A stretch of 26,090 nt of DNA from Acidobacteriota bacterium (lineage in GTDB: Bacteria; Acidobacteriota; Terriglobia; Terriglobales; Acidobacteriaceae): NCBI GenBank assembly GCA_021799405.1, contig JAJZAL010000050.1, positions 1-26,090 of the forward strand, written 5' to 3'. A program made the position numbers and the translations under genes. Each line of letters begins with the position of its first letter. Within the stretch, counting starts at the first letter, position 1. Shown here piece by piece: positions 9,987-26,090 of the stretch. A model generated the notes under the pieces. The model searched no databases and was not told the DNA's origin. It was given only the letters and a program-made list of their open reading frames with translations.

Positions 9987-10806
9987 AGCAAAACTCATCC
10001 AACCGGAACGGCCTAAAGATCTGCCTCCTATTGGACTGGATGACGTCTTTCCTTTTCAGTGTCGCCGTGACTTGGACTGCTTTACCACCTGTTGCCAGAA
10101 TGTGTCCATTATCCTGACTCCCTACGACGTGCTGCGCATGCACAAGGCGTTGGGCATCGATTCGACGGAGTTTCTGGAAAAATATACGCTCTCAGCTTTT
10201 ACCAATGAACAGAAACTTCCGCTGCTGCTGCTGCGCATGGACCCGGAAACGCTGCGCTGCCCCTTCGTCAGCGATACCGGCTGCGCCATCTATCAAGACC
10301 GTCCCTGGGCCTGCCGGATGTATCCATTGGGACTGGCTGAGCCGCGCCGGGCAACGCCGGAGGAGCAGCCGTTTCATTTTTTGATGCAGGAGGATTTGTG
10401 CCACGGACACGAATGCGGCAACAAGCAGACCGTGCGGCAATGGCTGGATGGACAGGGAATGGAGCAGTTTGAAGCCATGGAGGCCCCATTTAAGAAACTG
10501 ATGCTGCACGAATTCTGGCAGAAGGGAGAGCCCTTGCCGGACAACAAGGCGGCGATGACCTACATGGCCTTTTACGACCTCGACCGGTTCCGGCGTTTTG
10601 TCTTCGAGTCGCGATTTTTGTTGTTGTTCGATGTGGACGAGGCGCGTGTGGAGGCAATCCGTGCGGATGACGAAGAGTTGCTGGACTTTGCCATGGAGTG
10701 GCTGCAATTCGTGCTGTTGGGCGCCCGCACTATGAAGCTCCGTCCGGAGGTCCGCGAGCAAGCTGGAAAAACAGCCGTTGTTGCAGCGGCAGCAGCAGGG
10801 GAGTAG
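9979..10806 (+). CDS. YkgJ-family cysteine-cluster protein
   Basis: A 275-residue soluble protein. Residues 28-41 carry CRRDLDCFTTCC, and further on come CPFVSDTGCAIYQDRPWACR with MYPLG, then DLCHGHECG. This is the CxxxxxxxC..CC plus C-x8-C-x9-C pattern of the YkgJ family (putative Zn- or Fe-chelating domain, sometimes an Fe-S protein). The C-terminal half is mostly helical with no recognised motif. Function is unknown in any member I know of. Position directly before qmoA and coupling to the zinc-finger gene suggest a shared role in maturing or protecting the AprBA-Qmo enzymes; this is inference. Confidence 0.82.
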   Translation: MPEAKLIQPERPKDLPPIGLDDVFPFQCRRDLDCFTTCCQNVSIILTPYDVLRMHKALGIDSTEFLEKYTLSAFTNEQKLPLLLLRMDPETLRCPFVSDTGCAIYQDRPWACRMYPLGLAEPRRATPEEQPFHFLMQEDLCHGHECGNKQTVRQWLDGQGMEQFEAMEAPFKKLMLHEFWQKGEPLPDNKAAMTYMAFYDLDRFRRFVFESRFLLLFDVDEARVEAIRADDEELLDFAMEWLQFVLLGARTMKLRPEVREQAGKTAVVAAAAAGE

Positions 10807-10812
10807 AGAACC

Positions 10813-12087
10813 ATGACGCCTGCAGGCATCCCGCAAAGCGAAGGGCTGGACATCCTAGTGCTGGGCGGCGGTGTGGCTGGCATCTCCGCGGCTATTGAGG
10901 CAGCCGAAGCAGGCTGCAACGTTATCTTGATAGAAAAGTCTCCCACACTAGGTGGACGGGCGGTACGCAACCAGCAGTATTTCCCCAAGCTTTGTCCTCC
11001 CTCCTGCGGCATGGAGATCAACTTTCAGCGCATCAGGAAAAATCCACGTATTCATGTCATTACGCAGGCGAAACTGGAACGGCTGGAAGGCGTGCCCGGG
11101 GACTTTGAGGCCACCCTGAAGATTGCGCCGCGTCACGTCAACGCCAACTGTACGCAGTGTGGGGCCTGCGTCGAGGTATGTCCGGCGGAACGAGTCGACG
11201 AAGTGAATTGCGGACTCTCCCACACCAAAGCAGCGTATTCGCCATCATTGACGGCCTTCCCACCTTGGTATGCGATCGACCGGCAGGCCTGTCCCGCCGG
11301 GTGCCAAGCATGCGTCGATGTCTGCCGGTACTCCGCCATTGATTTACAACAAGAGCCGGAGCAGAAGACGGTGCGGGTTGCGGCGGTGGTGGCGGCGACG
11401 GGCTGGGAGCCTTACGACGCGGCAAAGATCGACAACCTGGGTTTCGGGCGTTGTCGCAACGTAGTGACCAATGTCATGATGGAGCGCCTGGCATCGCTGT
11501 CCGGGCCGACTCAGGGAAAAATTCTTCGTCCGTCCGATGGACAGCCGCCGCGCTCTGTGGCCTTTGTGCAATGCGCCGGCTCACGCGACGCCAATCATCT
11601 TCCCTACTGCTCGGCGGTCTGTTGCTCCGCATCTCTGAAACAGACCACGTATCTTCATCGCCAACTCCCCGAATGCAAGACCACCCTTTTCTATATCGAT
11701 CTACGCACTCCCGGCCTGCTGCAGGATTTCTTCAGCAAAGTCACGGCGGATGGGAGCGTTTGTCTGATCAAGGGCAAAGTGGGGAAGGTCGAGGAAGATG
11801 CATCCACTGGAGATCCGATCGTGACGGTGGAAGAGGTCATGACAGGAAAAAAGACATCCACGCGATTCGACATGGTGGTGCTGGCTACCGGTATGGTGCC
11901 GAATACGCAGGACCTGCCTGCTGGCTTCGGCCTAGACGAATTCGGTTTTGTAACGAATGAAAGCAAGGGGCTGTACGGCGCCGGGTGTGTTCAACGGCCT
12001 AGTGAAGTAGCGAGCAGCATTCGCGACGCTACGGGCGCGGCGCTGCGGGCGCTGCAATGCGTGGTGGAGGGCCTTCCCCGTGGATAA
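10813..12087 (+). CDS. qmoA: Quinone-interacting membrane-bound oxidoreductase subunit QmoA (HdrA-like)
   Basis: FAD- and Fe-S-containing soluble subunit of the QmoABC complex, which links the menaquinone pool to APS reductase. The 424-residue protein opens with LGGGVAGISAAIEAAEAGC and an FPKLCPPSCGMEINFQRIR stretch typical of HdrA/QmoA, then CTQCGACVEVCPAE (about 113-126) and CPAGCQACVDVC (about 159-170) for clusters, a VAATGWEPYD motif and a CAGSRD block. It overlaps qmoB by 8 bases. The nearby ATG spacing and length are normal; no defect is seen. Confidence 0.94.
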   Translation: MTPAGIPQSEGLDILVLGGGVAGISAAIEAAEAGCNVILIEKSPTLGGRAVRNQQYFPKLCPPSCGMEINFQRIRKNPRIHVITQAKLERLEGVPGDFEATLKIAPRHVNANCTQCGACVEVCPAERVDEVNCGLSHTKAAYSPSLTAFPPWYAIDRQACPAGCQACVDVCRYSAIDLQQEPEQKTVRVAAVVAATGWEPYDAAKIDNLGFGRCRNVVTNVMMERLASLSGPTQGKILRPSDGQPPRSVAFVQCAGSRDANHLPYCSAVCCSASLKQTTYLHRQLPECKTTLFYIDLRTPGLLQDFFSKVTADGSVCLIKGKVGKVEEDASTGDPIVTVEEVMTGKKTSTRFDMVVLATGMVPNTQDLPAGFGLDEFGFVTNESKGLYGAGCVQRPSEVASSIRDATGAALRALQCVVEGLPRG

Positions 12088-14335
12088 AAAACTGGGCGTC
12101 TACATTTGCAGCGGTTGTGAGATTGGCGCAAAAATCGCCATGGACGGGCTGGTCGGTGTGGCCGGGAAGGAATGCAAGGCTACGATTTGCCGCACGCATC
12201 CGTTTCTTTGCGGGCCGGAAGGCACGGCGCTGATTCACCAGGACCTGGAGAGCGGCGCGGTCAACACGCTGGTAGTTGCCGCCTGCTCGGCGCGGGCCAA
12301 GACCGAGGCATTCTCCTTTGATCCGCGCATGGTGATGGAGCGAGTGGATCTGCGCGAGCGCGTGGTATGGAGTCATCCCGCGGGCGAGGATGAGACGCAG
12401 GCTCTAGCGGAAGACTATCTACGCATGGGCATTGCCAAGGCCAATAAGATGGAGCCGTTGGAGCCGATGACCGGCGAGATCTCCAAGGCCATTCTGGTGG
12501 CGGGAGGCGGCATCGCGGGCCTGACGGCTGCGCTTGAAGCTGCGAACGCCGGCTATGAAGTTGTCCTGGTGGAAAAAAGCGAACGGCTGGGCGGCAGCCT
12601 GGCCGAGGTGAAGCGGCCCACGCCACTCAAAGCGCCGTACACTGCATCGCCCACCAATGACGCGCAGGAACGCGCGCGCCTGGCAATGGAGCATCCGCGC
12701 ATCCAGGTCCATACCGCAACAAATATTCTGCGCACCGAAGGCCAGCCGGGACAATTTGATGTCACTCTGGCAACTTCCAGCCAGCAGGTCATCGTCCGTG
12801 TGGGCGCGATTGTGATGGCAACAGGTTGGAAGCCATACGACCCAGCGCGACTCAGCGGGCTAGGATATGGTTCCAACCCCAATGTGGTGACCAATGTGGA
12901 AGCAGAACGGATGGCGGTGGAAGGCCGGATTCGCAGGCCCTCGGACAAAAAGCCCCCGCAACGTACGCTCTTCATTCAGTGTGCCGGATCGCGCCACGGC
13001 GACCACCTGCCGTACTGTTCCTCGGTCTGCTGCATGGCCACGCTGCAGCAGGCGGAATACCTCCATGAGGCGGACCCGAATGCGGAAGTGTACGTCATTT
13101 ATCAGGACATGATGACGCCGGGGCCGTACGAAAAGTTCTATCAAAAGGTGCAGGAGCACCCGCGGTCTTTTTTTATAAAGGGCGAGGTGACCGGCGTGGA
13201 TCCGCGGTCAGATGGCCAGGTGCGGGTACGCGTGGAACACACATTGGCCAATGAGCCGCTAGAGATCGATGTGGATCTGGTAGTGCTGGCCACGGGTATG
13301 GTCCCGAATGCAGCCGATAACGAGGCCATCCGCATCTTGCATGACGCGCAGGCAAAGGTCCTGCGCAATGAGTCCGAAAAGCAACGTACCGAAGCGGAAG
13401 CGGTCGTTGCCAGTTTGCGTCAGCACGAGAACACGGAAATCCTGCGCCTGGCGTATCGTCAAGGACCGGACCTGCCGGTGCTGCGGCATGGCTTTCCAGA
13501 TTCCAACTTCATCTGTTTTCCTTACGAGTCCCAGCGGACCGGTATTTATGCAGCCGGGGCCGTTCGCTCGCCGATGGATTGGACGGGTGCAGAAGAAGAT
13601 GCGGCCGGCGCGGCCTTGAAGGCAATCCAGAGCGTAGAACTAGCTACGCTTGGTGCGGCCGTGCATCCCCGGGCGGGAGACCTATCCTTTCCATTTTTCA
13701 ATCTTCAACGCTGCACGCAATGCAAGCGCTGCACGGTTGAGTGTCCGTTTGGCGCGATTGACGAAGACGAAAAAGGGACGCCGAAATTCAATCCGTACCG
13801 CTGCCGACGTTGTGGTGTCTGCTTGGGAGCGTGTCCGGAGCGCATCATCTCTTTCAAAAATTATTCCGTGGAGATGATCGCCGGCATGATCAAGGCGGTC
13901 GAGGTTCCGGAAGAAGAGGAAGAAAAGCCGCGGATATTGCTCTTCGCCTGCGAGAATGACGCGGTTCCAGCTCTCGACATGGCAGGCATGGAGCGGACGC
14001 AGTTGGATGCCAGTGTGCGTGTGATTCCGCTGCGCTGCCTGGGATCGATGAACGTGGTTTGGATTGCGGACGCGCTCTCCAGCGGATTTGACGGCGTAAT
14101 GCTGGCGGGATGCAAGCACGGGGAAGACTACCAGTGCCACTTTGTGCGCGGCAGCGAACTGGCCGAGCGGCGCTTGGACAACGTGAAGGAGACCCTGCAA
14201 AGGTTGCAGTTGGAGTCGGAGCGCATCGAGATGGTAGAAGCCGCATTTGACGATTTTCAGCGACTGCCACAGTTGATCAACGATTTTGCCGGACGCATTC
14301 GGGCGCTCGACCCCAATCCGTACAAGGGATTTTAG
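12080..14335 (+). CDS. qmoB: QmoB, HdrA-like subunit with ferredoxin and MvhD-like domains
   Basis: Second flavin subunit of the Qmo complex. Its 751 residues have the QmoB order: an N-terminal cysteine-bearing segment (GVYICSGCEIG, ICRTHPFLCG) seen in HdrA, FAD Rossmann motif AGGGIAGLTAALEAANAGY (from about 141), CAGSRHGDHLPYCSSVCC, two [4Fe-4S] motifs CTQCKRCTVECP and CRRCGVCLGACP (about 545-590), and a C-terminal MvhD/FrhD-like domain (about 615-720) with RCLGSMN and LAGCKHGEDYQCHFVRG. MvhD-like domains pass electrons in hydrogenase-heterodisulfide reductase complexes. The start overlaps the end of qmoA, so they are translationally coupled. Confidence 0.94.
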   Translation: MDKKLGVYICSGCEIGAKIAMDGLVGVAGKECKATICRTHPFLCGPEGTALIHQDLESGAVNTLVVAACSARAKTEAFSFDPRMVMERVDLRERVVWSHPAGEDETQALAEDYLRMGIAKANKMEPLEPMTGEISKAILVAGGGIAGLTAALEAANAGYEVVLVEKSERLGGSLAEVKRPTPLKAPYTASPTNDAQERARLAMEHPRIQVHTATNILRTEGQPGQFDVTLATSSQQVIVRVGAIVMATGWKPYDPARLSGLGYGSNPNVVTNVEAERMAVEGRIRRPSDKKPPQRTLFIQCAGSRHGDHLPYCSSVCCMATLQQAEYLHEADPNAEVYVIYQDMMTPGPYEKFYQKVQEHPRSFFIKGEVTGVDPRSDGQVRVRVEHTLANEPLEIDVDLVVLATGMVPNAADNEAIRILHDAQAKVLRNESEKQRTEAEAVVASLRQHENTEILRLAYRQGPDLPVLRHGFPDSNFICFPYESQRTGIYAAGAVRSPMDWTGAEEDAAGAALKAIQSVELATLGAAVHPRAGDLSFPFFNLQRCTQCKRCTVECPFGAIDEDEKGTPKFNPYRCRRCGVCLGACPERIISFKNYSVEMIAGMIKAVEVPEEEEEKPRILLFACENDAVPALDMAGMERTQLDASVRVIPLRCLGSMNVVWIADALSSGFDGVMLAGCKHGEDYQCHFVRGSELAERRLDNVKETLQRLQLESERIEMVEAAFDDFQRLPQLINDFAGRIRALDPNPYKGF

Positions 14336-14337
14336 TT

Positions 14338-15516
14338 ATGGCCATTACACCGATCGGCAGACCCGACAACGATTTTATCCGGGACGTGCAGGGTCTCGGA
14401 GGAGAGGATCTGAAGAAGTGTTATCAGTGCGCCGCCTGCACCTCCGCCTGTTCGTTGTCGACGGATCAGAACGGCTTTCCGCGCAAGCAGATGCTGATGG
14501 CACAGTGGGGGATGAAGGACAGGGTGATCGAAGATCCGGGGCCGTGGCTTTGCTACTATTGCGGCGATTGCTCCAAAGCCTGTCCGCGCAAGGCTAATCC
14601 CGGCGAGACCATGATGGCTTTGCGTCGCTATCTTACGTCTTACTACGATTGGACAGGACTTTCCCGACGGATGTACCGCTCCGGCATCTGGGAGATTGGC
14701 GTCCTGTTGCTGACGGCCGCGGTGGTGCTGGCGTTGTTCACGCTGCCGCAGGGGTTTGGTTTCGGTTTGCTGGCCCGCTCCGGCCCGGCGCCGCTGGCGC
14801 ACGTGATGCTGGATCGCTTCGCGCCGGTCGCCATTGCGCACCGAGCGGACCAATTGCTGGCCTTGCTGTTGGCCGTCTTTCTGCTCTCCAATGCCGCACG
14901 CATGTTTTTCTTCCTGACGCGCGGAAGGAAGATCCCTGTCGGCCTTTATTTTTCCTATCTTCCTGTTTTTGTTCTACACGGACTGACCCAGATGCGGTGG
15001 GAGTCGTGTGGTAGCAGGGAATCGACAAAGAACTGGCTGCGCCATCTCGCTCTAGTCTCAGGCTACGCGACGATGTTTTTGCTGGTAGTAATTTTCCTGC
15101 CTTGGTTTCAGATACAAAACAATAGTTTCCATTGGACCAGCTTTCTCGGCTACTACGCGACGATCGTCTTACTGGTAGCTACGGTATGGATATTGATCGA
15201 TCGCACAAGAAAGCGGGATGAAATTCACAAGTACAGCCATATTTCCGATTGGATGTTTCCGATTCTTCTGTGTTTTACGGCTCTTTCCGGCATCCTGCTT
15301 AACGTGCTGCGGTTGATGGACATGCCGATGCCGACCTATGTGATGTATACGATCCACTGGGCCATTGCGGCGCCCATGCTGATCGTGGAAGTTCCTTTCG
15401 GAAAATGGGCGCACCTGATCTATCGCCCGCTGGCCATCTATCTTGCTGCGGTAAGAAACAAGGCGGAGGAACTATCCGGAGAAAAGAGTGTTTCCATAAG
15501 CGAGAAAGTTGCATGA
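14338..15516 (+). CDS. qmoC: QmoC, membrane Fe-S/cytochrome b subunit
   Basis: Membrane anchor of Qmo that takes electrons from the quinone pool. The 392-residue protein is an HdrC-like plus HdrE/NarI-like fusion. Residues 28-38 (CYQCAACTSAC) and 72-83 (CYYCGDCSKACP) bind two [4Fe-4S] clusters; from about residue 120 there are five or six hydrophobic segments of a b-type cytochrome, with histidines in them as candidate heme ligands. It starts two bases after the qmoB stop. It is the last gene before a 348-base spacer, so the apr-qmo unit probably ends here. Confidence 0.95.
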   Translation: MAITPIGRPDNDFIRDVQGLGGEDLKKCYQCAACTSACSLSTDQNGFPRKQMLMAQWGMKDRVIEDPGPWLCYYCGDCSKACPRKANPGETMMALRRYLTSYYDWTGLSRRMYRSGIWEIGVLLLTAAVVLALFTLPQGFGFGLLARSGPAPLAHVMLDRFAPVAIAHRADQLLALLLAVFLLSNAARMFFFLTRGRKIPVGLYFSYLPVFVLHGLTQMRWESCGSRESTKNWLRHLALVSGYATMFLLVVIFLPWFQIQNNSFHWTSFLGYYATIVLLVATVWILIDRTRKRDEIHKYSHISDWMFPILLCFTALSGILLNVLRLMDMPMPTYVMYTIHWAIAAPMLIVEVPFGKWAHLIYRPLAIYLAAVRNKAEELSGEKSVSISEKVA

Positions 15517-15864: not shown

Positions 15865-17049
15865 ATGGCGGACAAGAAATATGATACCCCGATGCTGGAT
15901 GAGTTGGAAAAAGGCCCGTGGCCAAGCTTCGTGAAGGAGATAAAACAGGCCATGGACATCAGTCCGGCCTCGCAAGACCTTCTCGGAGTGCTGGAGGTCT
16001 CGTACGAGGACAAGAAGAACCACTGGAAGCATGGCGGCATTGTTGGGGTCATGGGTTATGGCGGCGGGATCATTGGCCGTTATAGCGACATGCCGGAGCG
16101 TTTTCCCAAGGTCGCCCACTTTCACACCCTGCGCGTCAACATGCCGTCCGGATGGTTTTATACCAGCGATGCCTTGCGCACCTTGTGCGATATCTGGGAG
16201 CGCCACGGTTCCGGTCTGACCAATATGCATGGATCCACCGGGGACGTCATTTTTCTGGGCACTACGACCGATGAATTGGAGCCAACTTTCAAGGACCTGA
16301 CCGCTGCAGGGTTCGACCTGGGAGGGTCCGGATCTTGTGTGCGGACTCCCTCTGCCTGCGTGGGGAAAGCTCGCTGCGAGTGGGCGTGCTATGACACCCT
16401 GGCCGCCTGTAACGACATCACGCAGACCTATCAGGACGAGTTGCATCGGCCCGGCTTCCCCTACAAGTTCAAATTCAAGTTCAGCGGCTGCCCGAACGAT
16501 TGCGTCGCCTCCATTGCCCGCTCGGACCTGGCCATTATCGGCACTTGGAAAGACGACATCCAGCAGGACGATGCCGCAGTGGCCGAGTACGCCGCGGCCG
16601 GGTTGGACATCCAGAGGGACGTTTGCAATCACTGCCCCACGAAATGTATGGATTGGGACGGCACCAAGCTAACCATCAGTAACAGAGAATGTGTGCATTG
16701 CATGCACTGCATCAATGTCATGCCGAAGGCCCTGCGTCCCGGCAAGGAGAAGGGCGCGGCGATCCTGATTGGGGCGAAAGCGCCGATCGTGCAGGGTGCG
16801 CTGCTGGCTTCGGTGCTGATCCCCTTTGTGCCTGTCGAGGAGTTGCTGGACACGATCAAGGAACTGACTTCCCGCATTTGGGACTTCTGGGGAGAGTATG
16901 GCAAGAACCGCGAGCGGATCGGGGAATTGATCCAGCGTGTAGGCATGGCGAATTTTCTGGATGCCATCGGGTTGGATCCTGTGCCCCAGATGGTCTCTGC
17001 GCCCCGCGACAATCCATATGTTTACTTCAAGGCGGAAGACAAAATATAG
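15865..17049 (+). CDS. dsrA: Dissimilatory sulfite reductase alpha subunit
   Basis: With DsrB, reduces sulfite at a siroheme-[4Fe-4S] centre; sulfur is passed to DsrC. The 394-residue protein contains the siroheme/cluster ligands CVGKARC (C-x5-C) and CPNDC (C-x3-C), then an inserted ferredoxin domain with CNHCPTKC and CVHCMHC. The [15 protein letters not shown] signature reads [11 protein letters not shown] here, and the protein begins [20 protein letters not shown]. The ATG has a good AAAGGAG. It is followed by dsrB after 56 bases. dsrD downstream argues for the reductive form. Confidence 0.97.
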
Positions 17050-17105: not shown

Positions 17106-18188
17106 ATGGCAACAGCCCCAGTCAAGCGCATCACGGACATTGGTCCACCGAGCTACGAAAAGTTCCTGCATCCGGTCATCAAGAAAAACTATGGTCTGTG
17201 GAAGTATCACGAGAACATTGCCCCCGGTGTCCTCTGTCATGTTTCGGAGACAGGTGACCGCATCTACACGGTGCGGGCCGGCTCGCCGCGGCTGCTTAGC
17301 ACGCACACCATCCGCATGTTCGCGGCGTTGGCGGACAAGTACTGCGATGGGTTCCTGCGTTTTACCAGTCGCAACAACGTGGAGTTCCTGCTGGACAAGA
17401 AGGAAAATATCGAACCGCTGAAGCAGGAGCTTCATGCCGCCGGTTTTCCCGTGGGAGGCACCAACAACGCCATCAGCAATATAGTGCATACGCAGGGATG
17501 GGTGCATTGCCACTCCTCGGCAACGGACGCTTCTGGCATTGTCAAGTGCGTCATGGATGCACTATACGAGCACTTCACAGAAGAAAAGCTGCCGGCTAAG
17601 ATGCGCATTGCACTGGCCTGCTGCCTGAATATGTGCGGCGCGGTACATTGCTCGGACATTGCCATTCTCGGCATCCATCGCAAGCCGCCGCAGATCAATA
17701 CTGACACGATCAACAAGATCTGCGAAATCCCCAACGTGATCGCTTCCTGCCCGACCGGGGCCATCCGCACCGCTACGGTCAATGGCAAGCCTTCGGTGGA
17801 GGTTGTGGAGGAGCAGTGCATGTACTGCGGCAACTGCTACACCGTCTGCCCGGCGATGCCGCTGAACGACCCTGCCAATGATGGGATTTCCATCTGGGTG
17901 GGGGGCAAGGTGAGCAACGCGCGCAGCGAGCCGCGCTTCTCTAAATTGGCCATTCCTTTTCTGCCCAACAATCCGCCGCGCTGGCCGGAGGTGGTGAACG
18001 CGGTGGTAAACATCGTCAATGTCTATGTGGAGAACGCGCGCAAGCATGAGCGTATGGGGGAGTGGATCGAACGCATCGGATGGCCTCGTTTCTTTGAGCT
18101 GACGGGCATTGAGTTCACCCGCTACCACATAGACGACTTCAAAAATGCCGGCCTGACATATGCCCGCTCGGCGCACATCCGGTACTAG
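17106..18188 (+). CDS. dsrB: Dissimilatory sulfite reductase beta subunit
   Basis: Partner of DsrA in the alpha2beta2 enzyme and carrier of the catalytic siroheme. With the ATG at 17106 it has 360 residues, starting [20 protein letters not shown], and a GGAGA ribosome site 7 bases upstream. Conserved blocks are [25 protein letters not shown] (siroheme-cluster cysteines), CPTGAI, and the ferredoxin motif [12 protein letters not shown]. The C-terminal helical end ([11 protein letters not shown]...) is also typical. A longer in-frame reading back to 16689 runs through dsrA and is not real. Confidence 0.97.
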
Positions 18189-18199
18189 GAGGGAACACT

Positions 18200-18448
18200 A
18201 TGTCTGTCCCAGTCGAAACCATTGCGGAAGAGATGTTCAAGATGGTCACGGAATACCAGGGGAAAAAAAACCTGAAGGCCTTGGACCTGACCAAGGCCAT
18301 GATAGCCAAATACGGCGACGCGGAATGCAGCAAAGATGACTGCAAGCACGCCATCCGTCTACTGATGGATTCCGGGCGCTGTGTCTACAGCTATTTTGGG
18401 GGAAGTTTTATTACCCTGCCGCACAAAGAAGGAGCCGCGCCGGAGTAG
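18200..18448 (+). CDS. dsrD: DsrD, small winged-helix protein of reductive dsr operons
   Basis: An 82-residue winged-helix protein beginning MSVPVETIAEEMFKMVTEYQ, with the GRCVYSYFGGSFITLP end typical of DsrD. It lies 11 bases after dsrB with GGAGGGA upstream of the ATG. DsrD is found in most sulfite-reducing organisms and is reported to act as an allosteric activator of DsrAB; sulfur oxidizers generally lack it. Its presence is the main sign of a reductive direction here. Confidence 0.92.
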   Translation: MSVPVETIAEEMFKMVTEYQGKKNLKALDLTKAMIAKYGDAECSKDDCKHAIRLLMDSGRCVYSYFGGSFITLPHKEGAAPE

Positions 18449-18487
18449 TCCTAACGAAGCCACATGGCAACGTCTCAGCACGGCATG

Positions 18488-18496
18488 AAGGAGAGG
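18488..18496 (+). promoter_or_regulatory. Shine-Dalgarno deciding the start of the ferritin-like gene
   Basis: AAGGAGAGG lies 6 bases before the ATG at 18503. An earlier in-frame ATG at 18464 has no comparable site. Confidence 0.65.
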
Positions 18497-18502
18497 ATCG
18501 CA

Positions 18503-18955
18503 ATGAACGCAAAAACGCTGGACAGGAAAAAAGTTGCGGATCGACAGGTGGCGCTTACCACCCTGCTGCGCCAGTGGCAGCAGATCGAAGACCACAGCGT
18601 TGAATCGACCACGCACATCATCCAGCAGACGAAGAATCCGTTCATCCAGCTGCTGATGGAGATCATCCGGCAAGATTCGGCGATGCACAAAAAGGTACAG
18701 CAATTCATCCTCGACAGCTTGGAAAAAGAAGCTGTCACATTGACGCCGGAGGACGTGGGGGAAATTTGGGAGAGCATCGAGCAACACGCGGCTATGGAGA
18801 GGAAGACCATCGAACTGGCGGAAAAGGCGCAGAAGGAATGCCACCTCTTTGTCCCCAGCCAACTTCTGACCTACCTCATTGAGGATGAGCATTTGCATGA
18901 CCGCCTGCTTGGTCAGCTTGAGGACTTCAAACGCACGATGTATTCCAACGGATAA
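18503..18955 (+). CDS. Small all-helical ferritin/hemerythrin-like protein in the dsr operon
   Basis: A 150-residue protein predicted by eye to be four long helices. Each helix carries acidic or histidine residues at spacings seen in ferritin-like diiron proteins: QIEDHS, IIRQDSAMHKK, IEQHAAMERK and LIEDEHLHDRLL. No transmembrane segment or cysteine pair is evident (a single cysteine, in KECHLF). Family is not firmly recognised; a diiron oxygen or redox sensor, or a structural partner of DsrAB or DsrL, are possibilities. It lies between dsrD and dsrL, 14 bases before dsrL, clearly co-transcribed. If the earlier ATG at 18464 is used it gains 13 residues. Confidence 0.75.
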   Translation: MNAKTLDRKKVADRQVALTTLLRQWQQIEDHSVESTTHIIQQTKNPFIQLLMEIIRQDSAMHKKVQQFILDSLEKEAVTLTPEDVGEIWESIEQHAAMERKTIELAEKAQKECHLFVPSQLLTYLIEDEHLHDRLLGQLEDFKRTMYSNG

Positions 18956-18969
18956 GTAGAGATACGACT

Positions 18970-20628
18970 ATGGGTCTCTTTAAGGAAGTCAAGAAACCGG
19001 TCATCAAAGGAGGAGGGAGCGGCGCGGACATCTCCCACACGCGACCGCATTTCGTGGAGAAGACACCTCCCTGCATCAGTACTTGCCCATGCGGTACGGA
19101 CATACGAGGATGGCTGACGACGATTGCGCAGGCCGAAGAATACGGGCGCACCCATGAGCAAGCCTGTGAGATCGCCTGGCAGAAAATCACCGAGCACAAT
19201 CCTTTTCCGGCAGTCTGCGGACGGGTTTGCCCGCATCCGTGCGAAGACGCGTGCAACCGCAGCGCTAAGGAAGGAAGCGTGGCCATCAATGCGCTGGAGC
19301 GCTATGTGGGCGACTTCGGACTCTCCAAGGCGCTCAAGCTGGCGAAGCTGACTGAAGAGATGCAGCCGGAGAAGGTGGCGGTCATCGGTGCCGGTCCGGC
19401 AGGACTTTCCTGTGCTTATCAACTGGCGCGGCGCGGCTATGGCGTCACTGTGTTTGAGGCTTTCAGCCGCGCCGGGGGCATGCTGCGGTACGGCATTCCC
19501 TGCTATCGCCTTCCCCGAGAGATTCTCGATGCGGAAATACAAAACATCCTGGACACAGGGGTCGAACTGCGTTGCAACACACAGGTGGGCCGCAACATTT
19601 CCCTGGAACAGCTTCGTAGGGACTACGCTGCCATCTTCGTGGGGATCGGCGCCCATAAAGGGGCGCGACTGGGAGTGCCAGGCGAGGATGCGCCAAATGT
19701 CTATACCGGTACGGAGTTCCTGAACCACGCCAACAGCGGCGAAGCTGTTGATCTTGGCAAAACTGTGATTGTGGTAGGTGGCGGCGACACGGCCATCGAT
19801 GCAGCGCGTATGAGTAAGCGGCTGGGCGCTTCCGTGACCATCTTCTACCGCCGCACACGCCAGGAGATGCCTGCTATCAAGCCGGAAATCGAAGGGGCGT
19901 TGGAAGAAGGGGTCAAGATCGATTTTCTGGTTGCGCCGGTAGAAGTGTTGCTGAAGGATGGCAAAGCTGTGGGTCTGAAGTGCATTCGCATGGAACTGGG
20001 CGAACCGGATGCCTCAGGACGGCGGCGGCCGGTTCCGATTGTGGGGTCCGAGTTCGAAACTGCGGCCAGCGCGATCATCACGGCCATCAGCCAGGCGCCG
20101 GAGTGGGACGGACTGGCGGACATCCAGCCGGACAAGAACTGGCTCAAGACCGGAGAGTGGGGCGAGATCGGACTGGACGGGCTGTTTGCGGGCGGTGACG
20201 ATACCGGCCTGGCGCTGGTGACCACGGCGATTTCGCAGGGTCAGTTTGCCGCCAAGGCCATCGACGCCAAGCTGCGGGGCAGAAAGCTGGAAAGCCCCTT
20301 GCATGGCTCCACTATCAAGCCGGAGAACTTGAAGCTGGGCTGGTACAAGGAAATGGCCCGTCACGAGCGCGCGCACATCCCCGCAGCAGAACGAGAGAAG
20401 GACACCGAGATCGAGTTGGGACTCACCGAAGCCGAAGTCTTTGAAGAAGCAAAACGCTGCATGTCCTGCGGCATGTGCATGGACTGCGAGACCTGCTGGA
20501 TGCTTTGCTCCAATAGCTGTTTTGTGAAACAGCCCAAGGGAGAACACTTCAAGATCAAGCTGGAGCTTTGCAACGGATGTCAGAAGTGCGCACAGGAATG
20601 CCCGTGCGGCTATATCGAAATGCAATGA
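18970..20628 (+). CDS. dsrL: DsrL, NAD(P)H-dependent iron-sulfur flavoprotein of the Dsr system
   Basis: Couples NAD(P)H to DsrAB. The 552-residue protein is GltD-like: N-terminal cluster cysteines (PPCISTCPCG at C35, C39, C41; CGRVCPHPCEDAC from C83), FAD motif VIGAGPAGLSCAYQLARRGYG (from about 137), NAD(P) motif VVGGGDTAIDAARMSKRLGA (about 266) and a C-terminal ferredoxin region from about 497 (CMSCGMCMDCETC; CNGCQKCAQECPCG). The sulfur-oxidizer DsrL is longer (about 650 residues in Allochromatium); the shorter form here may fit the DsrL-2 group linked to sulfite reduction, an inference to be checked by tree. It starts 14 bases after the preceding gene with a weak ribosome site. It is not plain glutamate synthase beta: the C-terminal ferredoxin part and dsr context exclude that. 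Confidence 0.93.
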   Translation: MGLFKEVKKPVIKGGGSGADISHTRPHFVEKTPPCISTCPCGTDIRGWLTTIAQAEEYGRTHEQACEIAWQKITEHNPFPAVCGRVCPHPCEDACNRSAKEGSVAINALERYVGDFGLSKALKLAKLTEEMQPEKVAVIGAGPAGLSCAYQLARRGYGVTVFEAFSRAGGMLRYGIPCYRLPREILDAEIQNILDTGVELRCNTQVGRNISLEQLRRDYAAIFVGIGAHKGARLGVPGEDAPNVYTGTEFLNHANSGEAVDLGKTVIVVGGGDTAIDAARMSKRLGASVTIFYRRTRQEMPAIKPEIEGALEEGVKIDFLVAPVEVLLKDGKAVGLKCIRMELGEPDASGRRRPVPIVGSEFETAASAIITAISQAPEWDGLADIQPDKNWLKTGEWGEIGLDGLFAGGDDTGLALVTTAISQGQFAAKAIDAKLRGRKLESPLHGSTIKPENLKLGWYKEMARHERAHIPAAEREKDTEIELGLTEAEVFEEAKRCMSCGMCMDCETCWMLCSNSCFVKQPKGEHFKIKLELCNGCQKCAQECPCGYIEMQ

Positions 20629-20649
20629 GCGAAAGAGGAGTAAAAAACG

Positions 20650-20967
20650 ATGCCTAAGTTCGAAGCAAACGGTCATAGCTACGAAGTGGATGAGGATGGC
20701 TTTCTGCAGGATCCAGAAATCTGGAACGAGGAAGTGGCTAAGGATTTTATGACCACGGAAGGAATCACGGAACTGACTGCGGATCACTGGAAGGTGATCA
20801 AGATGTTGCGGGACTATTACCTGCAGTTCGGAATTGCGCCGATGGTGCGCAAAGTCTGCAAGGACACAGGTTTCAAGCTGGGCCGAATCTATGAGTTGTT
20901 TCCGTCGGGACCGGCCAAGGGCGCTTGCAAACTGGCGGGTCTACCCAAGCCAACCGGGTGCGTCTAG
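20650..20967 (+). CDS. dsrC: DsrC, sulfur carrier of dissimilatory sulfite reduction
   Basis: Cytoplasmic protein that takes the sulfur of sulfite from DsrAB as a trisulfide on two C-terminal cysteines. At 105 residues it has the usual size. The end GACKLAGLPKPTGCV shows both redox cysteines, C93 and C104, ten residues apart, so it is a true DsrC and not a TusE (which keeps one Cys). YELFPSGPAKGACK is also conserved. AAGAGGAG precedes the ATG. It follows dsrL by 21 bases. Confidence 0.97.
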   Translation: MPKFEANGHSYEVDEDGFLQDPEIWNEEVAKDFMTTEGITELTADHWKVIKMLRDYYLQFGIAPMVRKVCKDTGFKLGRIYELFPSGPAKGACKLAGLPKPTGCV

Positions 20968-21044: not shown

Positions 21045-21548
21045 ATGCGCACATTGGACAATGCAGAAATCGATGGGATCGCCAAGGCATGGCTGATCAA
21101 GGTCGTTCAGTCTTTTTCGCTGCACGGCCAACCTTTTCTTGAACAGAAAAAAGATCCCTTCCGCAATCCCATGGGGCATGCGATTCAGGAGAACCTCCCA
21201 ATCGTGCTGCAAGAGATATTGGGCGGCATGGATCGCGCACGGCTGGCGGCGGCGCTGGAAGCGATTGTGCGCATCCGCGCGGTGCAGGAAGCCACCCCTA
21301 GCAAGGCGGTGGAGTTTCTTTTCCAGCTCTCTTCCATCCTGCGAGAGCAATGGAAAGCGTGGCCCGACGCGCAGGAAGAAGTGATGCAGCATACGCAGCA
21401 GGCCGCGCTGATCGCCTTCGATTTGTACATGGCGTGCCGGGAAAAGATTTTCGCTCTGCGAGCGGATGAGGCGCGACGGCGCACGGCACAACTGGAGAGG
21501 GTCTATCAAAAGCTAGAAGCGCAGAGCATGGAGGCGGAGCCGAGATGA
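21045..21548 (+). CDS. RsbRD N-terminal-like helical protein upstream of dsrM
   Basis: A 167-residue soluble helical protein. The segment LPIVLQEILGGMDRARLAA followed by IVRIRAVQEATPSKAVEFLF is the sort of helical bundle annotated as RsbRD N-terminal domain (globin-like sensor fold of stressosome proteins). A gene of this type is known directly before dsrM in several Deltaproteobacteria sulfate reducers. No STAS output domain is attached. The TGA overlaps the dsrM ATG as ATGA, so translation is coupled. Role unknown: a sensor or assembly factor for DsrMKJOP is a guess. Confidence 0.75.
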   Translation: MRTLDNAEIDGIAKAWLIKVVQSFSLHGQPFLEQKKDPFRNPMGHAIQENLPIVLQEILGGMDRARLAAALEAIVRIRAVQEATPSKAVEFLFQLSSILREQWKAWPDAQEEVMQHTQQAALIAFDLYMACREKIFALRADEARRRTAQLERVYQKLEAQSMEAEPR

Positions 21549-22546
21549 GCACGTTGCGAGCTGGCATCGCGTTTTTGGTGGTGTTTCTGGTGGCCGCTCT
21601 GGCGTATTTCGGCGCGGAGACGGCTGCCGTGCGGCCCCTGCTTGCGGACATCCTTCCGTATGCAGCGCTGCTGATTTTTTTGGCTGGTTTCAATTTCAAG
21701 GTGGTTCGCTGGGCATGGTCGCCTGTTCCCTTTCGCATCCCCACCACCTGCGGGCAACAAAAATCATTTCCCTGGATCAAGGCCAACCGCCTGGACAATC
21801 CATCGACCAAGACCGGAGCGTGGGGCCGTATGGCGCTGGAGGTCCTGTGTTTTCGCTCCCTGTTCCGCGATACCCGGGCGGAGTTGCGCGAAGGCCCTAG
21901 AATCGCCTACTCGGAAAATAAATTCCTGTGGCTAGCCGCACTGGCCTTTCATTGGTCTCTTCTCTTCATCCTGCTGCGTCACTTGCGCTTTTTTCTGTTG
22001 CCAGTGCCGCACTGGTTGATGGGGATGAGTGCGCTGGACGGATTTTTTCATGTGGGCGCTCCCAGGCTATACATCACGGATGGGGTGATTTTTCTGGCGC
22101 TGCTCTACCTGCTGGCGCGACGCTTCTGGGATGCGCAAGTACGCTACCTATCTCTGCTGGCGGATTATTTTGCGCTCTTTCTATTGCTCGGACTGGTGTT
22201 GACGGGAATCCAAATGCGCTATTCCGACAGAGTGGACCTGGAAAGGGTCAAGGAGTTTGCTCTCAGCCTGACCGCTTTTTCTCCCCACATTTCGCCCAAC
22301 GTGGCACCTTTGTTTTTCGTTCACCTGACCTTCGTATGTGTTTTGCTGGCTTACATTCCTTTCAGCAAGCTGATGCATCTTGGCGGCGTTTTCCTGAGTC
22401 CCACGCGCAATCTGGCCAACAATAGCCGCATCCAGCGCCACATCAATCCCTGGAATCCCGCAGTGAAGGTCCATACCTATGCGGAGTGGGAGGACGAGTT
22501 CCGGGAAAAAATCAGGGCGGCTGGACTGCCGCTGGAGAAGGAATAA
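21545..22546 (+). CDS. dsrM: DsrM, NarI-like cytochrome b subunit of DsrMKJOP
   Basis: Membrane cytochrome b that exchanges electrons with the quinone pool and passes them to DsrK. The 333-residue protein has an N-terminal hydrophobic hairpin, then KFLWLAALAFHWSLLFILLRH and later hydrophobic segments with histidines (AFHWS, LLRHL, LFFVHLTFV, KLMHLGG) as likely heme b ligands, similar to NarI. About six membrane segments are visible. A PWNP...YAEWEDEFREKI tail is typical of DsrM. The start overlaps the RsbRD-like gene by 4 bases; dsrK follows after two bases. Confidence 0.94.
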   Translation: MSTLRAGIAFLVVFLVAALAYFGAETAAVRPLLADILPYAALLIFLAGFNFKVVRWAWSPVPFRIPTTCGQQKSFPWIKANRLDNPSTKTGAWGRMALEVLCFRSLFRDTRAELREGPRIAYSENKFLWLAALAFHWSLLFILLRHLRFFLLPVPHWLMGMSALDGFFHVGAPRLYITDGVIFLALLYLLARRFWDAQVRYLSLLADYFALFLLLGLVLTGIQMRYSDRVDLERVKEFALSLTAFSPHISPNVAPLFFVHLTFVCVLLAYIPFSKLMHLGGVFLSPTRNLANNSRIQRHINPWNPAVKVHTYAEWEDEFREKIRAAGLPLEKE

Positions 22547-22548
22547 CC

Positions 22549-24171
22549 ATGTCCGATCATGCGCCATCGCCGCAGGAATTGGTCCAGATAACGTATCGGC
22601 CCACAGGGAGCACAGATTGGCTGGAACCGGTTGCCACGCTGTCTAAGGGGAGGTACTGCTACAGCGCGACTCCCAAAAACCTGAAGGCCATGGAGCAGCC
22701 CAACCCGCGTGAGTGGCAGCCCTATGAAGAAGATTGGAAGCTGCCGCCGGGCTGGCAAAAAATCATCCTTCAGGGAATGCAAGAACGGCTGAAGAAATTC
22801 CGCTCCTTCCGACTGTTCATGGAAATTTGCGTGCGCTGCGGAGCCTGCGCCGACAAATGCCACTTTTACCTTGGTTCGGGCGATCCGAAAAACATGCCGG
22901 TTCTGCGGGCGGAGTTGATGCGTTCGGTGTACCGCCGTTATTTCACCATAGCTGGGCGGTTGTTTGGGAAATGGGCGGGTGCGCGCGATTTGACCGTGCC
23001 GGTGCTGAAGGAGTGGTTCTATTACTTTTATCAATGCACGGAATGCCGCCGCTGCTCAGTCTTCTGCCCCTATGGCATCGACACGGCGGAGATCACCATG
23101 ATCGCCCGCGAGTTGCTGAACCTGGTGGGAGTGAACGTCAACTGGGTGATGGAGCCGGTGGCCAATTGCTACCGGGTGGGCAATCACCTGGGCATCCAGC
23201 CGCACAGCTTCGTGAATAGCATCGAGATGGCTGTGGATGATATTGAGGATCTGACTGGCATCCACATCGAGGTCCCTATCAACCGCAAGGGCGCGGAGAT
23301 CCTGTTCGTGATGCCCTCGGCGGACTACTATGCCTCACCCCACTATTACACCCTGCTCGGTTACCTGATGCTGTTCCATGAGATCGGGCTGGATTATACG
23401 ATCAGCGCCTACGCGGCCGAGGGGGGCAACTTCGGACTATTCGCCTCCAACGAAATGATGAAGCAGCTGAATTACAAGATCTACGCCGAGGCCAGACGCC
23501 TGGAGGTGAAATGGCTACTGGGCGGCGAGTGCGGCCACATGTGGCGCGTACTCAATCAATACATGGACACCATGAACGGTCCCGCAGATTTTCTTGAAGT
23601 GCCGGTCTCGCCCGTCACCGGAACGCGTTTTGAGAATACCCGCTCCACCAAGATGGTACACATCTGCGAATTCACCGCCGACTTGATCCATCACGGCAAA
23701 CTGAAGCTGGATCCCAGCCGCAACGATCACTGGCGGGTGACCTTTCACGACTCCTGCAACCCGGCGCGTGGCATGGGGCTGCTGGAGGAACCGCGCGCCA
23801 TCATCCGCAGCACCTGCAATCAGTTTTATGAGATGCCGGAGAACACCATCCGCGAACAGACCTTCTGTTGCGGCAGCGGCGCCGGCCTGGGGACGGATGA
23901 AAACATCGAGATGAGAATGCGCGGCGCATTGCCCCGCGCCAATGCCGTCAAGTACGTCCAACAGCGCCACGGAGTGAACATGCTGGCCTGCATCTGCGCC
24001 ATTGATAAAGCCACCCTGCCCACAGCAATGAACTACTGGGTGCCTGGAGTCGAGGTGGGCGGCGTGCATGAGTTTCTCGGCAACGCCTTGGTGATGCAAG
24101 GCGAAAAAGAACGCACGATCGACCTGCGCGGCGAGCTGCTGAAGGAAAAGGAGGTGCCAGTCCATGCGTAA
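22549..24171 (+). CDS. dsrK: DsrK, HdrD-like Fe-S subunit of DsrMKJOP
   Basis: Cytoplasmic catalytic subunit, thought to reduce the DsrC trisulfide. With ATG at 22549 it has 540 residues and AAGGA just upstream. It has two [4Fe-4S] motifs, CVRCGACADKC (from C94) and CTECRRCSVFCP (from C163), and HdrD-type CCG elements HDSCNPARG (C403) and FCCGSGAGLG (C440-C441) that hold the special [4Fe-4S] centre of heterodisulfide reductases. CEFTADLIHHGKL and the last CICAID are also conserved. It overlaps dsrJ by 8 bases. Confidence 0.95.
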   Translation: MSDHAPSPQELVQITYRPTGSTDWLEPVATLSKGRYCYSATPKNLKAMEQPNPREWQPYEEDWKLPPGWQKIILQGMQERLKKFRSFRLFMEICVRCGACADKCHFYLGSGDPKNMPVLRAELMRSVYRRYFTIAGRLFGKWAGARDLTVPVLKEWFYYFYQCTECRRCSVFCPYGIDTAEITMIARELLNLVGVNVNWVMEPVANCYRVGNHLGIQPHSFVNSIEMAVDDIEDLTGIHIEVPINRKGAEILFVMPSADYYASPHYYTLLGYLMLFHEIGLDYTISAYAAEGGNFGLFASNEMMKQLNYKIYAEARRLEVKWLLGGECGHMWRVLNQYMDTMNGPADFLEVPVSPVTGTRFENTRSTKMVHICEFTADLIHHGKLKLDPSRNDHWRVTFHDSCNPARGMGLLEEPRAIIRSTCNQFYEMPENTIREQTFCCGSGAGLGTDENIEMRMRGALPRANAVKYVQQRHGVNMLACICAIDKATLPTAMNYWVPGVEVGGVHEFLGNALVMQGEKERTIDLRGELLKEKEVPVHA

Positions 24172-24559
24172 GAAATTGGGCATTCTGGCCATCCTGGCGG
24201 TGTTCCTTGGACTGGTGACCTTCCCTTTTTGGCGCAGCTTGGGGATACGGCACTCCCAGCCACCGCCGAACTTGGTTCTGCCCGCAAACCAGAAAGACTG
24301 TGTGATGCCGGTCGCCTATATGCGGTCTTCTCACGTGTTCCTCCTGTTCAATTGGCGGGATTTGGTGGTCCGTCGCGATCGGCACGCCTTTCGTTCCTTT
24401 GACGGTAAGACGTACAACATGAGTCTGACAGGAACGTGTCTGGGCTGCCATAACAAGGAACAGTTTTGCGATCGTTGCCATACGTACATGGGGGTGCGGA
24501 CGCCCGATTGCTGGAACTGCCACATAGATCCCAGGGCGTTGCGCGGAGGCTTGCAATGA
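24164..24559 (+). CDS. dsrJ: DsrJ, triheme cytochrome c of DsrMKJOP
   Basis: Periplasmic triheme cytochrome, 131 residues, with an uncleaved or cleaved N-terminal hydrophobic helix (KLGILAILAVFLGLVTFPF). Three heme c motifs are seen: CLGCH (C92), CDRCH (C102) and CWNCH (C116). Cys46 (in KDCVMPVAYMRSSH) matches the conserved cysteine proposed as an unusual axial heme ligand in DsrJ. Its start overlaps dsrK and its stop overlaps dsrO (ATGA). Electron path through DsrJ is still unclear in the literature. Confidence 0.93.
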   Translation: MRKKLGILAILAVFLGLVTFPFWRSLGIRHSQPPPNLVLPANQKDCVMPVAYMRSSHVFLLFNWRDLVVRRDRHAFRSFDGKTYNMSLTGTCLGCHNKEQFCDRCHTYMGVRTPDCWNCHIDPRALRGGLQ

Positions 24560-25320
24560 ATATGACACGCAAAGAATTTCTAGGGCTTGCCGGAGCCTCC
24601 ATGCTGGTCGCTGTCAGCGGCAAGCAGGTGTTGGCCGAATTGGAGGGCGAACGGAAAGATGGCAGGCCGCGACCGCGCAAGCAATACGCGATGATTGTGG
24701 ATACCCGAAAGTGCAGCACCCTGCCCGACTGCACCAAGTGCATCGACGCCTGCAACAGTAGCCACAACGTCCCGGTAATTCCCGATCCGAACCACGAGAT
24801 CAAGTGGATATGGAAAGAAAAGGTCGAGAACGTTTTTGAGGCGCAGCAAATCCCCTATCTGGAAACGACGCTGAAAGAGCGGGCGACGATGGTGCTCTGT
24901 AATCATTGCGACGATCCTCCCTGCGTCCGTGTGTGCCCCACCGGGGCCACCTGGAAGCGGGAAGAAGATGGCATCGTGATGATGGATTGGCACCGCTGTA
25001 TCGGCTGCCGTTATTGCATGGCTGCGTGCCCGTACGGCTCGCGCAGCTTCAATTGGATCGACCCTCGCACGGAGTTAAAAGTATTGAATCCGGCTTTCCC
25101 GACCCGTACCAAGGGCGTAGTGGAGAAATGTATTTTCTGCTACGACCGACTCGCTCTCGGTCAGGGGCCGGCGTGCGTGGAGGTATGTCCGGCAAAGGCG
25201 CTGATCTTTGGCGACCTGAACGATCCAGGATCGGAAGTGCGGAAGATGCTCGGTTCGGGGCTGACTCTGCGGCGTCGACCTTCACTGGGTACCGGGCCTA
25301 ACATCTACTACATCCTCTGA
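24556..25320 (+). CDS. dsrO: DsrO, periplasmic ferredoxin-like subunit of DsrMKJOP
   Basis: 254 residues from ATG 24556, or 252 from a second ATG at 24562. The N-terminus TRKEFLGLAGASMLVAVSG looks like a Tat signal, but with Arg-Lys in place of the twin arginine. Cysteine motifs for about four clusters follow: CSTLPDCTKCIDAC, CNHCDDPPCVRVCP, CIGCRYCMAACP and CIFCYDR...CVEVCP, as in DmsB/NrfC-like proteins. It should pair with the NrfD-like DsrP next to it. A longer in-frame reading from 24466 lies within dsrJ and is rejected. Confidence 0.93.
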   Translation: MNMTRKEFLGLAGASMLVAVSGKQVLAELEGERKDGRPRPRKQYAMIVDTRKCSTLPDCTKCIDACNSSHNVPVIPDPNHEIKWIWKEKVENVFEAQQIPYLETTLKERATMVLCNHCDDPPCVRVCPTGATWKREEDGIVMMDWHRCIGCRYCMAACPYGSRSFNWIDPRTELKVLNPAFPTRTKGVVEKCIFCYDRLALGQGPACVEVCPAKALIFGDLNDPGSEVRKMLGSGLTLRRRPSLGTGPNIYYIL

Positions 25321-25330
25321 GGTGGTTGTG

Positions 25331-26090
25331 ATGTTCATGCTGGAAAAAGCCATGACCGGAAGCAGAAAGTACTGGACGTGGATATCCGGGCTGCTGCTGG
25401 TGATCCTGGTGGCCTTTTACTACTACATGCGCCAGTTCGACTACGGCCTGGGACTGACAGGCATGGGCCGAAACATTTCCTGGGGTCTCTACATCGGCCA
25501 GTTCACCTTTATGGTGGGAGTGGCCGCCTCGGCGGTGATGGTGGTGCTGCCGTATTATCTCCACGACCACAAGGAATTCCACCGTATGACCATTCTGGGG
25601 GAGTTGCTGGCTGTTGCCTCGGTCGTGGTGTGCATGCTCTTCATCTTTGTCGATGTCGGCCAGCCGATGCGCATCCTTAACGTGCTTTTGTATCCGCAGT
25701 TCCACTCCGTGATGTTCTGGGACATGGCGTCACTCAGCGGCTATTTGTTGTTGAATATCATCATCACGCTGGCGGCGCTGCACGCCGAACAAAAAGGCTT
25801 GCCCGTGGAGCGGTGGGTGCGGTATGTGATCCTGCTCTCGATTCCGTGGGCTGTCAGCATCCACACCGTGACTGCATTTTTGTACGCCGGTCTTCCAGGT
25901 CGGCCATTCTGGCTGACTGCCATCATGGCCCCGCGGTTTCTGGCCTCCGCATTCGCTTCGGGGCCTGCGCTGCTGATTTTGCTCTGTATGCTGGTTCGGC
26001 GGCTGACAGGGTACGATGTGGGCCGCAAGGCCATTGACGCCCTCGCCGTCATCATTACCTATGCGATGGCGATGAATGTTTTTTTCCTGT
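25331..26090 (+). CDS. dsrP: DsrP, NrfD-like membrane subunit (partial, C-terminus off the right edge)
   Basis: NrfD-family integral membrane subunit thought to exchange electrons with the quinone pool, partner of DsrO. 253 codons are visible of a protein usually near 400 residues. Visible traits are GLTGMGRNISWGLYIGQFTF, a typical NrfD opening, then six or seven hydrophobic segments including VAASAVMVVLPYYLHDHKEF, VDVGQPMRILNVLLYPQF and SIHTVTAFLYAGLPGRPFW. The ATG at 25331 follows the dsrO stop by 10 bases with GAGGTGG upstream; GTG 25328 directly before it is an alternative start. dsrN and dsrT, if present, would lie beyond the window. Confidence 0.93.
   Translation, partial: MFMLEKAMTGSRKYWTWISGLLLVILVAFYYYMRQFDYGLGLTGMGRNISWGLYIGQFTFMVGVAASAVMVVLPYYLHDHKEFHRMTILGELLAVASVVVCMLFIFVDVGQPMRILNVLLYPQFHSVMFWDMASLSGYLLLNIIITLAALHAEQKGLPVERWVRYVILLSIPWAVSIHTVTAFLYAGLPGRPFWLTAIMAPRFLASAFASGPALLILLCMLVRRLTGYDVGRKAIDALAVIITYAMAMNVFFL

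Follow-up and report, generated by a model that had tools for sequence, protein, structure and literature searches.

Reductive-type dissimilatory sulfite reductase (DsrAB) encoded together with DsrD and DsrL has already been described (Hausmann 2018, PMC6018796; Loffler 2020, PMC7596348; Diao 2023, PMC10591310, as DsrL-2C), and the purified DsrL-2 of Desulfurella amilsii used NADP(H) only (PMC7596348). Here we analyzed a stretch of 26,090 bases with 56.5% G+C (contig JAJZAL010000050.1, called the window below), in which an uncultured species of the Acidobacteriota has its gene cluster for dissimilatory sulfate reduction. An initial annotation had presented the combination of DsrD with DsrL as unusual. 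Given the published DsrL-2 and DsrL-2C systems this point had to be dropped: the NADPH-driven arrangement with a DsrL-2C-type DsrL is not new and the window is a further member of it. By analogy with its relatives, the best reading of the cluster is sulfite reduction fed by NADPH and mediated by DsrL, which we regard as quite probable. The surprising part of the cluster is a small helical gene, here named HEL, one gene upstream of dsrL.

Organization of the dsr genes

Six genes run head to tail between 15865 and 20967:

15865..17049, forward strand: dsrA, dissimilatory sulfite reductase alpha (TIGR02064 594.2 bits, cut-off 392.85; matches solved DsrA)
17106..18188, forward strand: dsrB, dissimilatory sulfite reductase beta (TIGR02066 524.7 bits, cut-off 341.5; reductive side of the tree)
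18200..18448, forward strand: dsrD-like winged-helix gene, 82 amino acids (homologues in dsrABD-L clusters; winged-helix model; no PF08679 match)
18503..18955, forward strand: HEL, small four-helix, putatively ferritin-like gene, 150 amino acids (family alignments; model; co-occurrence with dsrB)
18970..20628, forward strand: dsrL, type 2 (DsrL-2C-like), 552 amino acids (NF009410 590.5 bits, cut-off 516; tree; S22, R25, YRR at 293-295)
20650..20967, forward strand: dsrC (TIGR03342 119.4 bits, cut-off 53.5)

The gap between dsrA and dsrB is 56 bases, and the gaps from there to dsrC are 11, 54, 14 and 21 bases. Because these last gaps measure just 11 to 54 bases, dsrB through dsrC is likely a single transcript. 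Promoter-like sites between 15400 and 21100 numbered 3, against 2.8 in shuffled sequences, and terminator-like sites 8 against 5.7. Both C-terminal cysteines of DsrC, Cys94 and Cys104, are present in the translation. Relatives were collected by a profile search of genome contigs with 12 aligned DsrL proteins, and the best 80 of at least 576 were taken. The closest among these 80 is locus L001 (genome G001), an Acidobacteria metagenome-assembled genome (MAG) with a DsrL 90% identical and a DsrB 97% identical to those of the window and with the same order across its available stretch. The order dsrB, dsrD, helical gene, dsrL, dsrC had been correctly read and placed in the initial annotation; it is kept in the nearest relatives and is therefore not due to chance.

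DsrL and DsrB group with reductive systems

The DsrL tree was built from 65 rows; the other 16 of 81 were excluded for being fragmentary, fused or distantly paralogous. The DsrL of the window fell within a group of 37 mostly DsrABD-linked rows (100/96), and the DsrL proteins linked to oxidative DsrAB formed a separate group of 15 rows (100/99). These group labels are our own, given to a sample from which reference DsrL-1B and D. amilsii sequences are absent; six of the 35 rows labelled DsrABD-linked have no dsrAB in their available stretch (L003, L012, L014, L016, L020 and L029), and L033 was counted as oxidative-linked with no dsrAB within its stretch. One non-Dsr row with a long branch, L046, falls inside the 37-row group, and 13 of the 14 rows labelled non-Dsr paralogues lie on a different branch. 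Membership in DsrL-1 was rejected, as the DsrL-1A-like rows lie elsewhere in the tree.

The N-terminal SxxRP motif of the window DsrL comprises S22 and R25. The arginine is found in all 31 other rows that stand beside reductive DsrAB (in L021 Thr replaces Ser), and all 15 oxidative-linked rows have Cys at its position. This agrees with the arginine reported in place of cysteine at the distal cluster of reductive DsrL-2 (Loffler 2020, PMC7596348). Judged by spacing, S22 and R25 would correspond to Cys39 and Cys42 of NfnB. The placement and the arginine bear out the earlier view that this DsrL is of the reductive type, and its length, 552 amino acids, is short as expected of DsrL-2. The protein is a type 2 (DsrL-2C-like) iron-sulfur flavoprotein that by analogy most likely acts as NADPH:acceptor oxidoreductase; where the initial annotation had NAD(P)H, comparison with the D. 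amilsii enzyme suggests NADPH as the cofactor.

Other forms of DsrL were met among the relatives. Two Acidobacteriota genomes carry second DsrL-like copies 56-57% identical to that of the window (G003:C25:34185-35903, in L205, and G009:C253:491-2206), lower-scoring DsrL (409-458 bits) occurs in the dsr clusters of some Acidobacteriota (L170, L172, L173 and L178), and in G123 and G170 the DsrL open frame has 429 amino acids.

The placement of DsrAB was tested on DsrB only, and both trees were midpoint-rooted. In the DsrB tree of 56 rows, all 13 with an oxidative label are united on one side (100/100). The DsrB of the window branches together with 11 rows from Acidobacteriota (100/98) on the opposite side, which also includes 11 rows from a canonical sulfate-reducer family. 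An oxidative DsrAB, which the initial annotation had named as evidence that would speak against sulfite reduction, was rejected on this ground.

A winged-helix gene in the place of dsrD

The gene following dsrB had been taken for dsrD, the marker of reducers. Its position directly after dsrB, its homologues in dsrABD-L clusters and its predicted winged-helix fold (pLDDT 82.9) speak for this, but PF08679, the model of canonical DsrD, gave no match to the window gene. PF08679 matched one of 21 relatives (E 0.15), and another winged-helix family, PF07106, matched six of the 21 (best E 3.5e-5). Across genomes, PF08679 was found in 0 out of 19 versus 26 out of 26 canonical ones. An hhalign comparison with the canonical DsrD profile was weak (probability 7.9%, E 0.0044), with 2 of 300 column shuffles scoring as high. 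Canonical DsrD was not among the matches listed in a fold search with the winged-helix model, an absence that proves nothing. DsrD is an activator of DsrAB, and the winged-helix gene in its place probably does the same job. With the DsrD model failing on such clusters, automated annotation may miss the dsrD-like gene and misjudge the direction of the pathway.

A helical protein encoded upstream of dsrL

The start of HEL at 18503 was set by an AAGGAG-like ribosome site and by the relatives, an earlier ATG of the open reading frame (ORF) lying at 18464. The protein gave a confident four-helix model (pLDDT 91.9), and nine residues spread across the four helices are invariant in 59 rows: E29, E53, D58, H62, H95, E99, D128, E129 and H132. 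The rubrerythrin model PF02915 did not match the HEL of the window; it matched five of nine HEL members (best E 0.0028). Searched against solved sequences, the HEL profile gave only weak matches, the best at E 0.019 and some of them with diiron bundles of designed origin, and a fold search with the model returned weak matches, none significant, in which the absence of a match proves nothing. On this weak likeness HEL may be ferritin-like. Our guess, from the predicted fold and the conserved Glu, Asp and His, is that it would most likely be a di-metal protein of the ferritin or rubrerythrin kind working in this pathway.

HEL relatives stand immediately before dsrL in Acidobacteriota, in an Ignavibacteria, in another bacterium and in a Kapaibacterium (locus L023, where HEL follows an ORF of 466 amino acids). 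Among 396 Acidobacteriota genomes, HEL occurred in 20 and dsrB in 32 (E <= 1e-30; 29 over the cut-off), with HEL in 20 of the 32 dsrB-positive versus 0 of the 364 dsrB-negative genomes. Of these 20 genomes, 14 have it flanked by dsrD and dsrL, and in one it follows dsrD where the contig ends; in the others it lies between sat and a divergent dsrL (two), beside dsrC (one) or beside a siroheme-synthase-type gene (two). The phylum of Zixibacteria genome G453 gave a similar count: out of 132 genomes, 44 have HEL, 51 have dsrB and 40 have both, so that HEL is present in 40 of 51 dsrB-positive versus 4 of 81 dsrB-negative genomes. These last four comprise one short fragment, one genome with a DsrL at 52% (G546) and two with distant paralogues only. 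The two phylum samples together give 60 of 83 versus 4 of 445. Fisher tests yielded 1e-25 and 4e-19, figures that overstate the link between HEL and dsrB because the genomes are related.

The association is not strict. HEL matched 5 of 198 genomes in the phylum of Desulforhopalus, two of them strongly (G671 and G620), and these two have no DsrL above 45% identity and no dsr genes in the 15-16 kb stretches examined, which argues against a strict link. Among 60 chosen genomes HEL was found in 26, with none in the 12 canonical reducers or the nine DsrL-1A-like oxidizers. Genomes with dsrL and no HEL are common (G004, G006 and G007, for example), so HEL is not required. In a set of 63 distinct HEL copies biased to dsr genomes, 23 lie no more than 1.2 kb from dsrL, 10 lie near other pathway genes and 30 have no pathway gene within the available stretch. 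An Ignavibacteria locus (L029 and L168) has the order HEL-dsrL-dsrC and no dsrAB in its available stretch.

In print we found HEL only as 'hyp', at the same place in the order dsrD-dsrN-hyp-dsrL-dsrC of Ca. Thermonerobacter, as given in excerpts of Thiel 2019 (PMC6338057). A literature search for dsr clusters with a rubrerythrin-like protein found none; 'rubrerythrin' in PMC8528874 concerns genus-specific proteins, an excerpt of PMC11406059 contains no mention of ferritin, rubrerythrin or hypothetical, and the Fig. 2 legend of Hausmann 2018 (PMC6018796) speaks of four syntenic unknown genes. It is possible rather than probable that HEL is the first of a new family of accessory proteins in sulfate reduction of the DsrL-2C type. 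It would then be a four-helix protein with a di-metal site, linked to DsrAB that is fed by NADPH, with no finds in the canonical reducers tested, and would keep the DsrL/DsrAB path going in facultatively aerobic reducers or join directly in its electron transfer. If sulfite reduction driven by NADPH has a component still missing, this family is a concrete candidate that can be tested.

Neighbouring genes

The sat-apr-qmo-dsr gene set of the pathway is complete in the window. Besides the six genes given above, it holds:

4403..5668, reverse strand: sat, sulfate adenylyltransferase (TIGR00339 365.6 bits, cut-off 322.95)
7244..7690, forward strand: aprB, APS reductase beta subunit (PF12139 3.8e-34)
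7704..9632, forward strand: aprA, APS reductase alpha subunit (TIGR02061 889.9 bits, cut-off 641.75)
9699..9986, forward strand: Ogr/Delta-like zinc-finger protein in the aprA-qmoA interval (PF04606 5.2e-7; homologues likewise placed in relatives)
9979..10806, forward strand: CxxCxxCC metal-binding-domain protein in the aprA-qmoA interval (PF03692 1.8e-9; homologues likewise placed in relatives)
10813..12087, forward strand: qmoA, HdrA-like (HdrA-type matches under cut-offs; named from position and content)
12080..14335, forward strand: qmoB, HdrA-like with FlpD domain (PF02662 3e-39; HdrA-type match under cut-off)
14338..15516, forward strand: qmoC (NF038018 225.6 bits, under the cut-off of 300)
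21045..21548, forward strand: RsbRD_N-domain gene between dsrC and dsrM, which we take to be dsrT (PF14361 7.4e-11; synteny)
21545..22546, forward strand: dsrM (NF038037 476.4 bits, cut-off 300)
22549..24171, forward strand: dsrK (NF045796 727.7 bits, cut-off 400, scored on a longer ORF starting at 22486)
24164..24559, forward strand: dsrJ, triheme cytochrome c (three CxxCH in the translation; no Pfam match above cut-off)
24556..25320, forward strand: dsrO, ferredoxin-like subunit (PF13247 9e-24)
25322..26089, forward strand: dsrP, truncated by the window end (PF03916 7.8e-37)

Family models were thus passed above cut-off by Sat, AprA, DsrA, DsrB, DsrC, DsrM and DsrK, and by DsrL for a subfamily model. 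The genes read leftward are a partial citrate synthase, a siroheme-synthase N-terminal-type gene, a PF13189 kinase-like gene, a DUF1634 gene, an unlabelled membrane-protein-like gene and sat. Read rightward are a helix-turn-helix-like gene (recognized by eye), aprBA, the two small genes, qmoABC, dsrAB, the winged-helix gene, HEL, dsrL, dsrC, the RsbRD_N gene, dsrMKJO and the start of dsrP. The zinc-finger and CxxCxxCC pair of the aprA-qmoA interval (9699-10806) is shared by the window and several relatives, and homologues of the PF13189 cytidylate-kinase-like gene (1936-2775) recur near dsr or Qmo/Hdr-like clusters at several loci. When a 10 kb portion of the window was compared by megablast with one plasmid collection, no match was obtained.

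Sulfur-carrier genes

No dsrEFH was seen among the main ORFs labelled in the window, not every ORF of which was scanned with DsrE models, and absence of these genes was tested in the genomes of relatives. TIGR03012 (DsrE) scored over the cut-off in five of 25 genomes, which are five of the six tested that have oxidative dsrAB, and in none of 11 Acidobacteriota relatives, four of which gave weak matches. TusA and the DsrE family were searched for in 16 genomes as a stand-in for models of DsrEFH type II; among the 11 Acidobacteriota, nine matched the broad DsrE family PF02635 and four had TusA. Six of eight stretches taken from relatives for their sulfur-carrier genes were examined ORF by ORF. 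Genes of the DsrE or DsrE2 family, placed by PF02635 and in one case confirmed by PF13686, numbered one or two in each of five stretches and two in L204; no dsrEFH trio was recognized in the six, whose ORFs were not each scanned. In the Acidobacteriota relatives dsrEFH of type I was therefore not found, yet sulfur-carrier genes exist. In Acidobacteriota that bear dsr genes, the nearest relative among them, TusA, Hdr/Qmo-like and DsrE-family genes lie side by side (L202 4727-11163, L204 and L206), and another stretch of the nearest relative (L113 4165-7640) carries an ArsR-rhodanese regulator, an SQR-like flavoprotein, a cysteine desulfurase and a DsrE-like gene.

Direction of the pathway

As the gene set suggests, Sat would activate sulfate, and AprBA with QmoABC would reduce it to sulfite. 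In the established pathway, DsrAB of the reductive type then reduces sulfite with transfer of the sulfur to DsrC, and the DsrC trisulfide is reduced via DsrMKJOP. DsrL would most likely pass electrons from NADPH to DsrAB, in the reductive direction. The winged-helix protein in the DsrD position would probably activate DsrAB, and HEL, by our guess, could be a further accessory, guarding DsrL/DsrAB from oxygen or peroxide for example. What the window itself shows is which genes are present, where DsrB and DsrL fall in the trees and which motifs they carry; the NADPH preference, the direction and the contact of DsrL with DsrAB are taken from characterized relatives.

Several findings weigh against NADPH-fed sulfite reduction. 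The membership of the winged-helix gene in DsrD is weak, and QmoC scores under its family cut-off (NF038018, 225.6 versus 300 bits). The YRR motif, as reported for DsrL-2, is present at residues 293-295 of DsrL, in the NAD(P) site, but is not diagnostic: it also occurs in 5 of 9 DsrL-1A-like rows, in all 6 others linked to oxidative DsrAB and in each of the 33 that remain, non-Dsr paralogues included. As DsrL-1A-like and other rows carry it, it is no evidence of type in our sample and was rejected as a type marker. Finally, an Hdr/Qmo-like cluster of the nearest relative, G001, contains TusA and DsrE2, and the same genome has a DsrE-like gene close to a cysteine desulfurase and an SQR-like flavoprotein, the SQR-like match being far under the model cut-off (108.5 of 525 bits). 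With these genes, oxidative or disproportionating use is possible, and they speak for a cluster that runs reversed or in both directions, with sulfide or sulfur oxidized via DsrC, DsrAB, Apr and Sat and with DsrL handing DsrAB electrons to NADP+. DsrL is indeed bidirectional in vitro (PMC7596348), Hausmann 2018 (PMC6018796) left the reverse direction open, and, in excerpts of Plum-Jensen 2026 (PMC13293266), cable bacteria are proposed to reverse reductive DsrAB and a second DsrEFH type goes with reductive DsrAB. Since the relatives hold sulfur-carrier genes and this second type accompanies reductive DsrAB, reversal has to be reckoned with, but we judge it improbable: none of the 11 Acidobacteriota relatives passes the TIGR03012 cut-off, DsrL and DsrB both lie on reductive branches, and excerpts of a 2023 study (PMC10564751) describe near-exclusive transcription of dsrAB under anoxic, sulfate-reducing conditions in a related MAG which, unlike G001, has no TusA or DsrE.

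It is still far less likely that DsrL is no partner of DsrAB at all and that a generic GltD-type NADPH oxidoreductase came into the operon by chance. The family is huge, with E <= 1e-60 reached by 7965 of the 7998 proteins scored, and the model that DsrL passed (NF009410) describes a general NAD(P)-binding subfamily; against this, the branch of the window DsrL adjoins dsrAB or dsrC in many phyla, apart from the branch of the 13 non-Dsr paralogues. NAD(P)H-driven sulfite reduction through DsrL, as the initial annotation had interpreted the locus, is partly supported, and none of the contrary results that it had named was obtained where they could be tested.

Comparison with known systems

As modelled, HEL would share with rubrerythrin, sulerythrin and ferritin-like proteins the four helices, Glu/Asp/His on each of them and one ExxH, but the HEL of the window matched neither a rubrerythrin family nor, significantly, any known fold. 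Like HEL, the 'hyp' gene of Ca. Thermonerobacter stands before dsrL, the place that HEL takes in the Kapaibacterium locus L023; excerpts of that report (PMC6338057) call the 'hyp' gene hypothetical and no more. The winged-helix gene resembles canonical DsrD (PF08679) in its position after dsrB, its size of about 80 amino acids and its fold, whereas the family model fails on it and the profile similarity is weak. The DsrL-2 of D. amilsii, compared by its published description (PMC7596348), has a reported YRR as in the window; unlike the window's species, D. amilsii is a sulfur and thiosulfate reducer. The closest systems are the DsrL-2C systems of Acidobacteriota (PMC6018796; Flieder 2021, PMC8528874; PMC10591310), which share the gene set, the dsrL-dsrC pair, a short DsrL, reductive DsrAB and a cluster without dsrEFH, but belong to other species. 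The window cluster is another case of DsrL not marking sulfur oxidation. It unites sat, aprBA, qmoABC and dsr within 26 kb, and in the MAG SbA2 the same genes are likewise found on one scaffold (Hausmann 2018, PMC6018796).

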